The notes beneath the pieces were generated by a model. It had not been told where the DNA came from, searched no databases, and saw nothing but the letters and a program-made list of their open reading frames with translations. Below, one piece after another: positions 12,498 through 54,505 of a stretch of 64,000 bases of DNA; position 1 is the stretch's first letter; the number at the start of each line of letters is the position of its first letter. The DNA is from a virus. The translations under genes were made by a program, and so were the position numbers. The stretch is from positions 62,001 through 126,000 of IMG/VR virus record IMGVR_UViG_3300031951_000001. One strand, given 5' to 3'.

Positions 12498-13355
12498 TCA
12501 AAACTTATTTACATCACCGTAATTCATGTGTAATTCATCGTGTTCGGCTTTCATCATTTCGTAAGCTCGAGCCATTCGAGTCATTCCGATACCGCCACCA
12601 AATCTTTTGAAGAATTTGTGAGACAAGAATTCTTCCAATTCCTTCTCAACCCTTTCTTTACCAAACAATTCAAACAATTTGGCCGAATAACCACCATTTT
12701 CAATAGTATAGAACATTTCTCTCATTTCATCAACATCACAACTTCTTTCGGCCGAACCAATTGTTTCTTGACCATAAAGAATAACATCCACTTTGTTGAA
12801 TTTATCTCCCTCACCCGACTTCATATTCCAGAATGGGTTTGTTCTAACGGGGAAATTCTGTAATGACACTACACTACCTTTTTCATTCCACATTCTTGTT
12901 TCGTGCTCGTTCTCCAAAATCGGTACACCACCATATTCTTCACAAACATCGTCATAATTCACTTCAACAGGTGAATCAAAACCTAAAAACGCAAGTAATT
13001 CAGATTCTAATTTAAGTAATTCCTTCATACCACCCTTTGACTCGAACTCAAACATTGGGAAGATTAATTCGTGACGACCTGGGATTGGGTCTTTTTCTTG
13101 TCTGTACGATGTTGAGATACAGAACACACCTGGCCATTCAGGATTTTGTAACAATTCATACTCTAACCACATTTGACCTGTTTGTGGTAATGGCCAAATT
13201 TGACCTTGGTACTCAAACGTTGTGATTGAGTGTGGATTCTCACATGCTGCGAGAATTGATAATCTTGATTGGGTCGGAACCTCAAGAAAACCTTTGTTTA
13301 GAAAAAAGGTCCTCATCTTTTGGACCAACTCGTGATAAACTTTTGTGTTTTTCAT
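12498..13355 (-). CDS. class II aminoacyl-tRNA-synthetase-like catalytic domain (AsnRS/AspRS type)
   Basis: A 285-residue protein that looks like the catalytic core of the AsnRS/AspRS/LysRS group. Motif 2 is SYRQEKDPIPGRHELIFPMF followed by acidic residues, a family-like GSAERSCD segment follows, and motif 3 is GGGIGMTRMARAY with the ATP-binding Arg. No N-terminal OB-fold anticodon-binding domain is present, so ordinary tRNA charging is doubtful. Stand-alone paralogues of this family can act as amide-forming enzymes or modify other substrates. Upstream on the same strand are an intrinsic terminator and a short Asn-rich mini-ORF, which suggests attenuation. Substrate unknown. Confidence 0.75.
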   Translation of the reverse strand: MKNTKVYHELVQKMRTFFLNKGFLEVPTQSRLSILAACENPHSITTFEYQGQIWPLPQTGQMWLEYELLQNPEWPGVFCISTSYRQEKDPIPGRHELIFPMFEFESKGGMKELLKLESELLAFLGFDSPVEVNYDDVCEEYGGVPILENEHETRMWNEKGSVVSLQNFPVRTNPFWNMKSGEGDKFNKVDVILYGQETIGSAERSCDVDEMREMFYTIENGGYSAKLFELFGKERVEKELEEFLSHKFFKRFGGGIGMTRMARAYEMMKAEHDELHMNYGDVNKF

Positions 13356-32236: not shown

Positions 32237-32253
32237 CATAAGTTATTTGAAAT

Positions 32254-34157: not shown

Positions 34158-34493
34158 ATGGAACAACAAATTTATACTGTGGTAATCACATTGTTAACTG
34201 TTTTAACTTCTACCGCTGCGTGGAGGTATTATGAAAAAAGGATGGTGTTAAAGGCTAAACAAGAACAGGATGTACATAAAGATAGCGAAATGTATCGAGA
34301 TGACCTGAGAGAAAGAGTTGTTAAGTTGGAGACATTGTTAAATGAGTCGGCTAAAGAAAAAGATAAAATGAGAGAAAACATTGTATTATTGACTGCTCAA
34401 GTATCCAAATTAGAAGTGGAAGTTGAATTTTTAAGAAGGGATAACGAAAATCTTCGAGCCGAAAATCATTCATTAAGACAAAGATTGGTATAA
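34158..34493 (+). CDS. membrane-anchored coiled-coil protein, spanin-like
   Basis: A 111-residue protein. A membrane helix at residues 5-22 (YTVVITLLTVLTSTAAWRYY) is followed by a long coiled coil to the end. The layout is that of an inner-membrane spanin subunit or other membrane-anchored rod. I start at 34158 because the upstream extension would run through a terminator. Its stop overlaps the next gene's ATG. A spanin role is only suggested by topology. Confidence 0.5.
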   Translation: MEQQIYTVVITLLTVLTSTAAWRYYEKRMVLKAKQEQDVHKDSEMYRDDLRERVVKLETLLNESAKEKDKMRENIVLLTAQVSKLEVEVEFLRRDNENLRAENHSLRQRLV

Positions 34494-35215
34494 TGACAAA
34501 TTTTTCTTACATAACAAATACCTCTAAAGGTAGAATAACATCCCCTTTCGGTAATAGGGTACATCCTACATTAGGTAAGGTTAAAAAACATTCTGGATTA
34601 GATATTGCTCATCCAACAGGAACTGAAGTACTAGCAATGACCGATGGTGTTGTTATTCAAAGTGAAATGGCGAATAATGCTTGTGGTGGCACAATTGCTA
34701 TAGACCACGGAATGGTTGATGGAAAAAAACTTAAAACCAGATTTTGTCATAATAGTAAATTACTTAAAAAAGTAGGAGATAATGTTAAAAAGGGTGAGGT
34801 AATTGCAATTTCTGGAGGGGGTAAAAGTGATGTTGGTAGAGGTCGCTCAACAGGACCTCATATCCATTTTGAAGTGTATGAAAACGGTCAAACTGTAAAT
34901 CCAAAACCGTATTATGAGGGTTCATCAGTGGGATTAAAATCTGATAGTGAAACTACAACCGATTCAGATACCACAACTGAACCAACCAAACCAATTACCT
35001 CACAATCGAGTGATGAAGATATTGAAAATTTTATAAAATATTTGATTGGTGGTAAGGACATGACAATCGCTCAAAAAAACAAAGCTTTGATGCCACTTGT
35101 TAAACAATTATCACCAGGATTGGCGGATATTTTAAGTTCAGCAATACAAAATGAATCAACGGAATATGTTACAAAATTGACCGAAGATATAAAAAGAATA
35201 AAAAATTTACTTTAA
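34493..35215 (+). CDS. M23 family metallopeptidase (LytM-like)
   Basis: A 240-residue protein. Residues 12-135 form a complete M23 domain: TSPFGNRVHPTLG, HSGLDIAHPTGTEVLA (H and D zinc ligands) and GPHIHFEVYENG (HxH), so it should cleave peptidoglycan cross-bridges. There is no signal peptide. A Thr-rich linker leads to a helical C-terminus ending YVTKLTEDIKRIKNLL, similar to the tail of the next protein. Likely a virion-borne or tail-associated lysin. Co-transcribed with its neighbours. Confidence 0.88.
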   Translation: MTNFSYITNTSKGRITSPFGNRVHPTLGKVKKHSGLDIAHPTGTEVLAMTDGVVIQSEMANNACGGTIAIDHGMVDGKKLKTRFCHNSKLLKKVGDNVKKGEVIAISGGGKSDVGRGRSTGPHIHFEVYENGQTVNPKPYYEGSSVGLKSDSETTTDSDTTTEPTKPITSQSSDEDIENFIKYLIGGKDMTIAQKNKALMPLVKQLSPGLADILSSAIQNESTEYVTKLTEDIKRIKNLL

Positions 35216-35216
35216 T

Positions 35217-35786
35217 ATGGACTATTTTTCACCAGTAAACGGAGTAGAAGCCGAAGAAAAAACGTTTTCAAAAACAGTAGAATTTAATCCAAGGTCCGAA
35301 AGTACTATACTATCTCCTGTAGACGGAACAGTAATAGACAAAAGAGGTGAAAGTATTAAAATAGAAGGTGATGATGGACATATACTAACTTTTGATAAAG
35401 TTGGTAGAGCGTCGGTCACAAATGGAAGCAGAGTTTTTAAAAAAAGAACTGTAGTAGGATATACCAAATCAGACGATGCTCTTGAGCTTACAATTTTTAA
35501 TGACAAAAATTCTAAAGTGGATGTAAAAAAATATCTAAAAGGTGAAATCGCACCAATTACTACAGGAAATGATAAGACAGGTTCATCGACTGGTAGTAAA
35601 TTATATAAAAGTACAAATGTTACTGATGGTAAAAAAATAAGTGACTACGCTTTAGTACGAGGAGTTGTAAAAGACGTGGCACTGGCCCCATTTACCGCAT
35701 TCCAAGCTCTAACAAAAGAAAGTGTTGAGGAGTCGGAAAAAATCTTAAAGGAACAAGTCGAGAGAATCAAACAATTGATGAAATAA
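35217..35786 (+). CDS. degenerate M23/lipoyl-fold-like protein
   Basis: A 189-residue protein. Its core (ILSPVDGTVIDKRGESIKIE; VTNGSRVFKKRTVVGYTKSD) resembles the beta-barrel core of M23 peptidases or biotinyl/lipoyl-like folds, but the zinc residues are missing. It ends EEQVERIKQLMK-like, matching the previous protein's tail. It begins one base after that gene's stop. It may be a non-catalytic partner of the M23 enzyme in the virion. Confidence 0.55.
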   Translation: MDYFSPVNGVEAEEKTFSKTVEFNPRSESTILSPVDGTVIDKRGESIKIEGDDGHILTFDKVGRASVTNGSRVFKKRTVVGYTKSDDALELTIFNDKNSKVDVKKYLKGEIAPITTGNDKTGSSTGSKLYKSTNVTDGKKISDYALVRGVVKDVALAPFTAFQALTKESVEESEKILKEQVERIKQLMK

Positions 35787-35904
35787 AAAAAATTTCAGAT
35801 TTTGCTTGTTCCAGCAATATTTATTCTTACATTTGTAGAGGATTTGACACCTACAGGTGATGAAAGATACTCGGAAGTTAAATCTAAAAAAACTTACAAA
35901 TAAA

Positions 35905-35936
35905 TTTGGTAGAATGAAAAAGTCACCATATATTTG
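35905..35936 (+). promoter_or_regulatory. host-type promoter of a putative small RNA
   Basis: TTTG (35905-35908), 20-nt spacer, TATATTTG (35929-35936). It faces a long inverted repeat rather than an ORF. Confidence 0.75.
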
Positions 35937-35938
35937 TA

Positions 35939-35985
35939 AAAGATTTGAGACGGACAACGATTAAGATACAAGTCTCGAATCTTTA
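35939..35985 (+). ncRNA. putative small hairpin RNA
   Basis: Immediately after the promoter comes AAGATTTGAGAC, an internal loop of about 20 nt, and GTCTCGAATCTT, making an 11-12-bp stem. No T-run follows, so the 3' end is unclear. It could be a small RNA or the 5' part of the larger transcript. Confidence 0.4.
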
Positions 35986-36004: not shown

Positions 36005-36036
36005 TTTGACAGAACGAAAAATTTGACTTAAATTTG
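36005..36036 (+). promoter_or_regulatory. host-type promoter of the large non-coding RNA
   Basis: TTTG (36005-36008), 20-nt spacer, TAAATTTG (36029-36036), a full match to the Bacteroidota consensus. Confidence 0.8.
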
Positions 36037-36042
36037 TAAAAC

Positions 36043-36941
36043 AATTCGGAAATGACCGAAGAAGTTCTTTGAAAATTAGATTATCCATCAGGATGTTGAT
36101 GATGAGACCTTAGGGTTGATTCTGAGACAACTGTAAAAGATAATGGGCCGTGTATGGTCCTTAAATAAACTACGAAAGTAGGATAAAGTGACCTCCCCCG
36201 TGTTGAGGAGGTTGCGGTTTCGAAAGGAACTCGAGTACACAAGTGGGATATCACAAGACCTTTAGTACCGAGGGTAACACTGTAGGGAAAGTGGTCAGGT
36301 GACTTGGCAAAGTGGATTGTCAAGTTGAGGTGGGAACACCAACAAGAATAACCCATAGGAATCAAGTAAGAAATGTGGCTTCCAACTACAATATTGCGGA
36401 TTCCAATACAGAAGGGTACTTAAAACCGAAAGGTAAGGTAGAGAACGAGTGGTGTCGCTACTACCCCTAAGGAAGACCTACCAAGGTCTCTTTATGAAGT
36501 AATCTGAAAGTATGGAGATAGGGATATCTCACGGAGTAGTTTAGTATTCTGTCGCTCAAAAGGAGACGGAACTTACGGTGGACCACTACTCTGACACATC
36601 CACGACACAATCTTAAATTATTAAAAAATAATTAAAGGAAAAGTGTCCATCAGGTTTAAGTGAAAGGTCACTACCTAATCACTGGCTGTCAGTGGTACAG
36701 AAAGACCCCAAGTCCGACTGTAGTTTTACGAAAAACCTTTAATCCCGCAAGGATGAACTGGGGTGGCAACCTCGGAAAGAGTTAAGTAATAAGAGAGTAA
36801 CTTAAACCTCAAGGAGTGGTAAACCTAAAAGACCGTGACTGAGAAATACTTCTCAAAAGGAAGTGGATACGAAGGGAAACAATAATCCTTCAAAAGGTTC
36901 TCACAGAAAGCTGTAATCTCAGGCTTCGTTTAATCTTACAT
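36043..36941 (+). ncRNA. large structured non-coding RNA, about 0.9 kb, GOLLD/ROOL-like candidate
   Basis: A stretch of about 900 nt without a convincing ORF, with many local hairpins, several closed by GNRA-type loops. Examples: GGTG-GGAA-CACC (36329-36340), GAGATA-GGGA-TATCTC (36515-36530), AGACC/GGTCT (36474-36489), CCTCC/GGAGG (36192-36211), ACTTG/CAAGT (36302-36325). GC content and purine-rich linkers differ from the flanking coding DNA. It has its own promoter, a boxA-like GTTCTTTGAAAA near the 5' end, and runs directly into an initiator tRNA. Size, phage location and tRNA linkage match the GOLLD and ROOL classes. I cannot confirm the class by eye. Confidence 0.7.
36064..36075 (+). promoter_or_regulatory. 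boxA-like antitermination element
   Basis: GTTCTTTGAAAA matches the boxA sequence of bacterial rRNA leaders. It lies about 30 nt after the promoter of the large RNA, where an rRNA-type antitermination complex including NusG could load. Confidence 0.5.
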
Positions 36942-37014
36942 CGCAACTTAGAGCAGAGGCCAGCTCGTCAGGCTCATAACCTGAAGGTCGGAGGTTCGAA
37001 TCCTTCAGTTGCAA
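36942..37014 (+). tRNA. initiator tRNA-fMet (CAU)
   Basis: A 73-nt cloverleaf with acceptor CGCAACT/AGTTGCA, in which position 1 C faces A72, the mismatch that marks bacterial initiators. The D arm is GAGC..GCTC, the anticodon stem TCAGG/CCTGA with loop CTCATAA, and the T arm GGAGG-TTCGAAT-CCTTC. The stem has only two G-C pairs next to the loop instead of three. CAA rather than CCA follows. It is joined directly to the large RNA upstream and is followed by a terminator. Confidence 0.92.
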
Positions 37015-37023
37015 CAAATTTAC

Positions 37024-37049
37024 AGGTGAGCTTGTCTCACCTTTTTTTA
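37024..37049 (+). terminator. intrinsic terminator after tRNA-fMet
   Basis: AGGTGAG-CTTGT-CTCACCT stem and seven T. It ends the large RNA/tRNA transcript. Confidence 0.88.
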
Positions 37050-37099: not shown

Positions 37100-37399
37100 A
37101 TGGAAATGTTTTATTTCACTTTAGGTGTTCTTACGGTTATTGCTCTGACATTAGTTGGGGTGGTAGTTTTGGGAATGGGTAGAGTTCAAAAGCTCCAAAG
37201 AGAAATGCAGAGTTACAGAGAACAGTACAGATGGGATTTTGAAAATAACCATCGTCGTTTTGATGAACAACAGAGAATAACTCAAGAAAGATTCTCGGAT
37301 TTCTACAGAGATTTTGAAAAACTTCACCAAGAATGTACAAGTTACACGGACAAAAGAATTGATAAATTTATTTATCAATACAAAGAGAAAGAAAGTTAA
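37100..37399 (+). CDS. membrane-anchored coiled-coil protein
   Basis: A 99-residue protein with a membrane helix at about residues 5-27 and an Arg/Glu/Gln-rich coiled coil after it. The topology resembles the protein at 34158. Spanin, or anchor of an envelope complex, is possible. No recognised family. Confidence 0.55.
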   Translation: MEMFYFTLGVLTVIALTLVGVVVLGMGRVQKLQREMQSYREQYRWDFENNHRRFDEQQRITQERFSDFYRDFEKLHQECTSYTDKRIDKFIYQYKEKES

Positions 37400-38550: not shown

Positions 38551-38557
38551 CTTACGG

Positions 38558-38932
38558 TGGAGGTACGGGGAGTCGAACCCCTTCCTACTCATCTTAACTA
38601 CTAAGCCCTACATGTTTAGGTCAACATCGCTTCTCAATGTTCCGAAATATTGGTTTTTGAGCTCTCAAAACCACAAACGAGTTGTGTTTCTTTTCGGGTA
38701 GAAACCACACCACAGTACGAGCTTCTGTTCCAAGGTTGTATGCTTACCGACCCGTTTTGTATCCCAATCCTAGATTAGGCTACTGAAATGTTCTCTTCAG
38801 TACGGATAAGACCAACTGCAGAGAGTTTGTTGATAACGTTGCCGTTTATCGTGTGAACCAGTTTTACAAGGTTAGTTCAGCCTCGACATGCTCCGAGTAA
38901 TTAACTATGCTAGTCAATTCCAAGTTACCCCC
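38558..38932 (-). ncRNA. ssrA: tmRNA (ssrA)
   Basis: A 375-nt RNA with the tRNA-like ends of tmRNA: 5' GGGGGTA paired with 3' TACCTCC, including the G3-U70 alanine identity pair, and T arm GGGG-TTCGACT-CCCC. Pseudoknot 1 is visible (CGAGG/CCTTG and TGAAC/GTTCA), followed after about ten bases by a tag frame with a GGC resume codon. The frame ends ...EENISVA then TAA (38775-38843). This tag is about 22 codons long, roughly double the usual length. CCA is not encoded (CCG). It rescues stalled ribosomes and marks proteins for proteolysis; a ClpC-like ATPase is encoded nearby. Confidence 0.88.
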
Positions 38933-39005
38933 ATATTTCAAATAACGTTCTACAAATATATACATAGTTTATTGGTAATCCAAGTATTTATATAAAAAGT
39001 TTTTA

Positions 39006-54320: not shown

Positions 54321-54505
54321 AAGTCTTTGTTTTTCATTTTCTGAACATACTTGGCCTTTTTCAACATTTTTCTTTTTCTAACCGACTTCTTTTCATACTC
54401 CTTTCTTTCGACGAGTTGACTTGACTGTCGGGTCTTAATCACTTTACTTTTGAGTAACTTTAATGCTCTCTCAATACCGTTTTTATCTACTTTGACAATT
54501 AACAT
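54317..54505 (-). CDS. rpsU: ribosomal protein bS21 homologue
   Basis: A 62-residue basic protein matching bS21: MLIVKVDKNGIERALKLLKS, then KTRQSSQLVERKEYEKKS and a Lys-rich helical tail. Bacterial S21 binds the 30S platform near the anti-Shine-Dalgarno region. Phage-encoded S21 proteins are known in large uncultured phages and may enter host ribosomes to bias translation. It is on the minus strand inside the head gene block, overlaps the end of the core-like gene by four bases, and has a TATTTAT box five bases before ATG. Confidence 0.85.
   Translation of the reverse strand: MLIVKVDKNGIERALKLLKSKVIKTRQSSQLVERKEYEKKSVRKRKMLKKAKYVQKMKNKDF

Follow-up and report, generated by a model that had tools for sequence, protein, structure and literature searches.

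Identification of a GOLLD RNA in a large T4-like phage

What is made from a stretch of some 900 nucleotides that encodes no credible protein and runs directly into a methionine tRNA, and what might a phage use it for? The stretch lies in the window analysed here, 64,000 nucleotides corresponding to bases 62001–126000 of a virus record totalling 322,372 bases. T4-type terminase, portal, head protease and major head protein genes are encoded in the window, and the phage itself, at 322 kb, is T4-like. A preliminary description, made from the sequence, had proposed a giant structured RNA belonging to GOLLD, ROOL or a new class, and had suggested a covariance-model search to decide. The Rfam search (cmscan) returned GOLLD (RF02032) at positions 36532–36925 with 317.4 bits and E = 5e-90, the gathering score being 150 bits and the match covering model positions 1–416, which is the full model. 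No family besides GOLLD and tRNA reached threshold over the region in Rfam. ROOL is ruled out, there being no Rfam match to it even allowing E up to 5, and the GOLLD match rules out a new class. The structured region is a GOLLD RNA, a member of a known family. GOLLD RNA is said to go back to Weinberg et al. in 2009.

The Rfam model represents the 3′ domain of GOLLD only. Searching viral contigs with the conserved 3′ motif yielded 119 loci, 112 of which match GOLLD at E ≤ 0.001, nearly all exceeding the family cut-off; seven are not GOLLD and were removed. In 95 loci, homology to the window takes in the 5′ domain as well, and the RNA therefore spans approximately 36044–36928, about 885 nt aligned, of which the first 60–140 nt are the most variable part among homologues. 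The interval first proposed is corrected accordingly: the RNA body has these limits, and the upstream regulatory region begins near 35805 rather than at 36005. A conserved 3′ domain following a less conserved 5′ domain, with a total of more than 800 nt, is the arrangement expected of GOLLD, and the gene is located in a virus record with terminase, portal and capsid genes and has a tRNA 16 nt downstream. GOLLD is also present in two huge-phage records of 634 and 642 kb. Motif matches in Bacteroidales and Eubacteriaceae genomes (L125 and L123) are unconfirmed as GOLLD and probably due to chance. The two domains and the neighbouring genes are as follows.

36075–36531, plus strand: GOLLD 5′ domain (cap domain by analogy), from homologue alignment and covariation
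36532–36925, plus strand: GOLLD 3′ domain (ring domain by analogy), from Rfam RF02032 (317 bits) and covariation
34493–35215: M23 peptidase gene, upstream neighbour of the GOLLD region
35217–35786: small ORF between the M23 peptidase gene and the GOLLD region
37100–37399: Rz-like spanin gene (weak assignment), downstream neighbour of the GOLLD region

The RNA has a covarying two-domain fold and no conserved reading frame

The preliminary description had seen no credible gene over about 900 nt and had named conservation of a reading frame as evidence against an RNA. Among 62 homologues no such conservation was seen: a 94-aa minus-strand frame inside the RNA is open in one, and frames of 52, 41 and 47 aa are open in 19, 23 and 10, respectively. 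The two internal frames searched against Pfam gave no match. A hidden gene inside GOLLD is ruled out by this lack of conservation among the longest internal frames.

Folding of the region is stronger than chance (z = −4.0 relative to 20 shuffles), as anticipated for a structured RNA. Covariation, the further check that had been suggested, was assessed in 63 non-redundant homologues (kept below about 93% identity and averaging 67% in pairwise comparison) by predicting a consensus fold and scoring its pairs with an APC-corrected G statistic, the null being a set of alignments generated by simulation along the tree, each column with its observed number of changes (E < 0.05). Significant covariation was found for 112 of 232 predicted pairs; the 5′ domain contributes 60 of its 120 pairs and the 3′ domain 52 of its 106. 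The strongest covarying pairs outside the nested fold include pseudoknots; in that of the 5′ domain, pair 36152:36238 occurs as GC in 25, CG in 19, AU in 13 and UA in 6 homologues.

36150–36154 with 36236–36240, plus strand: pseudoknot in the 5′ domain, from covariation
36577–36582 with 36646–36651, plus strand: pseudoknot, from covariation
36667–36671 with 36835–36839, plus strand: pseudoknot, from covariation
36637–36638, plus strand: J13/15 side of a B7-like contact, pairing with L20 at 36708–36709
36707–36711, plus strand: L20 loop CCCAA, partner of J13/15, from covariation
36746–36750, plus strand: L21a loop CGCAA (the bridge B8 self-kissing loop in the cryoEM structure), from a loop switch in homologues

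Two of these features can be related to the GOLLD env-38 cage solved by cryoEM (Kretsch et al., 2025; PMC12286853). In that structure the contact between L20 and J13/15 forms the intermolecular bridge B7. Here, pair 36638:36708 joins a linker flank to loop L20 and is paired in 63/63 homologues (C-G in 36, G-C in 26 and A-U in 1), and it would correspond to bridge B7 from its place in the fold. L21a alternates between CGCAA and GUCGAA across homologues; as this is the published GC/CG loop switch, and the loop lies at the matching position, it is assigned to bridge B8. Both bridges are assigned by position in the fold.

Tandem promoters and a boxA precede the RNA

35805–35835, plus strand: upstream promoter 1, Bacteroidota type, TTG ... 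TACATTTG, a pattern match with 1 mismatch
35838–35886, plus strand: promoter-proximal hairpin with near-invariant loop AGGUGAUGAAAGAUACUCGG and variable outer stem, from core matches upstream of GOLLD
35906–35936, plus strand: upstream promoter 2, TTGG ... TATATTTG, from a pattern match and tandem promoters in homologues
35942–35984, plus strand: long hairpin after promoter 2, GATTTGAGAC / GTCTCGAATC, from sequence (RNAfold −15.8 kcal/mol)
36005–36036, plus strand: GOLLD-proximal promoter, TTTG (36005–36008), N20, TAAATTTG (36029–36036), from sequence, position kept in homologues
36045–36060, plus strand: short leader hairpin TTCGG-AAATGA-CCGAA in a boxB-like position, from conserved hairpin position
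36064–36074, plus strand: boxA GTTCTTTGAAA, conserved before GOLLD

The host-type promoter first noticed is present and its position is conserved in homologues, and two further promoters lie about 200 and 100 nt before it. Transcription from the proximal promoter would be expected to start near 36041–36044. Homologues repeatedly show tandem promoters at a spacing of about 100 nt ahead of GOLLD; Bacteroidota-type promoters are dense there, with 202 observed compared to 5 in shuffled upstream segments that preserve base composition only. The hairpin at 35942–35984 is strong and has no T-run behind it. Of 33 clusters, 31 have a hairpin of at least 4 bp and changing sequence between promoter and boxA; the −7 element most often stands 26–28 nt from boxA.

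The boxA-like element reported initially proved to be a conserved feature. GTTCTTTGAAA occurs as a single exact copy within the 64-kb window, and the motif GTTCTTTGA, scored as GTTCTT[TA][GA]A, is present upstream of GOLLD in 48/50 homologue clusters (91/95 loci) compared to a background expectation of 0.023 per locus (per 360 nt). The four loci without it are tRNA arrays of actinobacterial type, in which no boxA was found with the patterns tried. Where the tRNA is upstream, boxA stays just before GOLLD (L023, L108 and L115). Since a TTCTTTGA-like motif, identical or differing by one letter, is found 49–176 nt before 16S in 11 of 16 Bacteroidota leaders, the GOLLD boxA is most likely the rrn boxA of this phylum. 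The rrn antitermination complex of E. coli needs boxA, and boxA suffices for it (PMC10250234).

These features bear on the host. A bS21 ribosomal protein gene lies at 54341–54496 of the window on the minus strand, amid the terminase, portal, protease and capsid block, and bS21 is encoded in 11 of 25 large GOLLD phage records. Bacteroidetes-infecting phages of 293–331 kb carry bS21 in the same kind of setting, likewise on the reverse strand within the structural genes, according to the accessible part of their description (Chen et al., 2022; PMC9723584); the likeness is one of genome size and gene setting, and GOLLD does not figure in that part of the description. Bacteroidota-type promoters, a boxA common to Bacteroidota rRNA leaders and bS21 in the structural block agree, so the phage is assigned to a Bacteroidota host, in line with the origin suspected at first.

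GOLLD is frequently followed or preceded by an initiator tRNA

36926–36941, plus strand: 16-nt spacer from GOLLD to tRNA, from sequence; expected to be an RNase P substrate leader
36942–37015, plus strand: initiator tRNA-Met(CAT), from tRNA features and initiator model score
37024–37048, plus strand: intrinsic terminator AGGTGAG-CTTGT-CTCACCT-T6, from sequence

The RNA runs into an initiator-type tRNA, as had been described, beginning 16 nt past the end of the Rfam match. The tRNA is assigned to this type because it has a C1:A72 mismatch, A11:U24 and two of three anticodon-stem G-C pairs at 29–31:39–41 (A29-U41, G30-C40 and G31-C39), the other GOLLD-linked initiators having two or three; its D-stem is GAGC/GCTC and CCA is not encoded. 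It scores 87.5 bits with a covariance model, trained on the GOLLD-linked initiator tRNAs themselves, that separates initiators (83 bits or more) from other tRNAs at GOLLD loci (71 or less). The original wording, that the RNA is fused to the tRNA, holds only at the level of a predicted common transcript. A hairpin at 37024–37042 plus a T-run forms the terminator seen earlier after the tRNA. It is claimed for the window only because the scan of 13 homologue clusters, in which none was found, was uninformative.

Among 420 distinct tRNAs at GOLLD loci, 21/25 initiators adjoin GOLLD compared to 33/395 other tRNAs (odds ratio 58, p = 3e-17), and over 31 whole records (6.2 Mb), 12/18 initiators are no more than about 1.3 kb away from GOLLD (binomial p = 2e-18), both p values treating contigs as independent though the phages are related. 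A recognised adjacent initiator is present in 17 of 50 GOLLD clusters, and the association is thus frequent, not general. An exclusive link to the initiator was rejected, since other GOLLD genes adjoin Glu, Gly, Ala or Arg tRNAs, or none, and 6/18 initiators lie elsewhere. The order also varies: GOLLD is followed by the tRNA in the window, and promoter-tRNA-boxA-GOLLD (L023 and L108), tRNA-boxA-GOLLD (L115) and promoter-boxA-tRNA-GOLLD (L020) are found in homologues.

Several unusual tRNA-like sequences were observed beside GOLLD. Degenerate initiator-like tRNAs occupy the same 3′ position in five loci (L069, on the minus strand, L021, L033, L048 and L050), retaining CTCATAA with other tRNA features lost. 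In the huge phage LR756502 (L003, 4760–5915), a tRNA-Glu(TTC)-like gene stands on either side of GOLLD, and that on the upstream side contains an insertion near the D-loop. By eye, the actinobacterial-type tRNA arrays of L105, L040, L046 and L121 contain an apparent circularly permuted tRNA directly upstream of GOLLD, with the order 3′ half, short linker, 5′ half, a matching anticodon stem and an acceptor stem of 7 complementary bp that is perfect in L105 and weaker in L121.

Related leader elements accompany other stable RNAs

GOLLD loci totalling 1.14 Mb contain 14 exact matches to the core of the AGGUGAUGAAAGAUACUCGG hairpin, each lying shortly before GOLLD on the same strand. The hairpin has no Rfam family and is widespread in viral contigs, where at least 120 stretches match its core (L160–L266). 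Among the matches listed, boxA follows within 120 nt in 37 of 82 distinct copies, and the hairpin often stands 33–37 nt before a boxA. It also precedes a tRNA without GOLLD (L187), and could function in phages as a leader or in antitermination. Mostly followed by boxA, it heads related ORF-less stretches of about 300–590 nt (L162, L164, L192, L230, L233 and L262) with 71–89% identity between members and a terminator at the end in L162 and L164; these two have no GOLLD or other large-RNA match in Rfam. Such stretches are a candidate new large phage RNA. A search for this boxA-led, non-GOLLD RNA returned four copies only.

The window also contains a phage tmRNA at 38555–38932 on the minus strand (RF00023, 94.6 bits), missed by ARAGORN, whose tag frame, by eye, ends NISVA. 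It has its own Bacteroidota-type promoter (38953–38983) and the boxA-like GTTATTTGAAA in its leader (38936–38946); the same string lies at 32242–32252, directly before a tRNA-Leu/tRNA-Met pair. Bacteroidota-type promoters are present before the tmRNA and also before a tRNA-Arg. A class II tRNA-synthetase-fold protein, possibly AsnA-like (PF00152, phrog_29758), is encoded at 12498–13355 on the minus strand.

A proposed transcription unit resembling a small rRNA operon

The sequence itself establishes the GOLLD identity, the two-domain covarying fold, conservation of the contacts matching B7 and B8, the conserved boxA and promoters, the initiator-type tRNA and the terminator, the elements standing in the order tandem host-type promoters, leader hairpin, boxA, the ~885-nt GOLLD, 16-nt spacer, initiator tRNA and intrinsic terminator. 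We think it likely that 36005–37048 is one stable-RNA transcription unit of a Bacteroidota phage, with the layout of a small rRNA operon and working in the following way. Host RNA polymerase would start at the tandem promoters and boxA would recruit NusB-S10, allowing the polymerase to read a long untranslated folded RNA without premature termination. RNase P would cut at the tRNA, freeing it and setting the 3′ end of GOLLD, which would fold co-transcriptionally into a homo-oligomeric cage as solved for its relative env-38. The cage's most likely place of action would then be at or next to the translation machinery, at a late stage of infection. This final step, the weakest of the series, is suggested by the bias towards initiator tRNA, by the genes for bS21 and tmRNA and by the binding of ribosomes to GOLLD in pull-downs reported by Kretsch et al. 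(PMC12286853). In a Lactobacillus brevis prophage, GOLLD was reported to be dispensable for phage production (PMC7567579), which counts against an essential role there.

The strongest competing account, to which we give somewhat under an even chance, is that GOLLD and tRNA share a stable-RNA operon with no functional link, being neighbours merely through common host-type promoters and boxA leaders. The tRNA would then serve phage translation alone, or act as an RNase P signal for the 3′ end of GOLLD, and the cage would have a non-translational role. The GTTATTTGAAA copies before tRNA-Leu and in the tmRNA leader, the promoters before tRNA-Arg and tmRNA, the leader hairpin before a tRNA without GOLLD and the non-initiator tRNAs beside other GOLLD genes are all consistent with this. 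Against it stands the strong bias towards initiators over other tRNAs, which recurs on either side of GOLLD in differing gene orders. A bolder version of the translational role, which we rate as rather unlikely, would make the GOLLD unit of Bacteroidota phages a miniature mimic of an rRNA operon, the cage carrying, releasing or displaying the initiator tRNA in a late takeover of initiation together with bS21 and tmRNA.

We consider it unlikely that the cage serves to contain or scaffold non-translational cargo, such as a lysis protein, nucleotides or a DNA-packaging factor, with the M23 and spanin setting reflecting lysis timing. The two genes flanking the GOLLD region fit such a role, the spanin being a weak assignment, as do literature reports that GOLLD increases during lysis and that an abundant untyped ncRNA lies next to the lysis cluster of phage ICP1, but the linkage to initiator tRNA is left unexplained. 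That the region is a structured stretch left by decay or arisen by chance, or a gene that went unrecognised, is practically discounted, being already refuted by the covariation and contradicted by the GOLLD match and the lack of a conserved frame.

Comparison with known large RNAs and implications for GOLLD function

The window RNA shares with the GOLLD family and env-38 a full 3′ domain, total size, a divergent 5′ domain, phage location and an adjacent tRNA, and the B7-like contact and L21a loop switch are present as sequence signatures. Formation of a homo-14-mer nanocage and expression that increases during lytic growth are further marks of GOLLD, and the cage is a predicted one for the window RNA. 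Env-38 lies downstream of a tRNA-Met, whereas in the window tRNA-Met is 3′ of GOLLD with 16 nt between. The proximity of GOLLD to tRNAs, including the Met-tRNA beside env-38, has been published; the rrn-like leader (hairpin and boxA) and tandem promoters are documented here. The accessible GOLLD literature does not mention the boxA or an initiator-tRNA preference, and since Weinberg 2009, Morgado 2020 and the Chen 2014 dissertation lie outside that scope, we claim no priority. ROOL is likewise a large phage RNA found near tRNAs and forms a cage, but differs in sequence and fold. A bacterial rrn operon leader has in common with the window leader the tandem promoters, a hairpin followed by boxA, a tRNA that would be co-transcribed and the boxA string of Bacteroidota 16S leaders, and differs in that the RNA driven by the window leader comes from a phage and is not ribosomal.

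The conserved boxA leader and the initiator bias provide a concrete lead on the function of the GOLLD cage. GOLLD appears to share the mode of expression of rRNA and to be connected with translation initiation, and the rrn-like layout points to a testable role near translation. The predicted hosts of GOLLD-carrying bS21 phages are common aquatic Bacteroidota, and infection experiments should therefore be feasible in principle.
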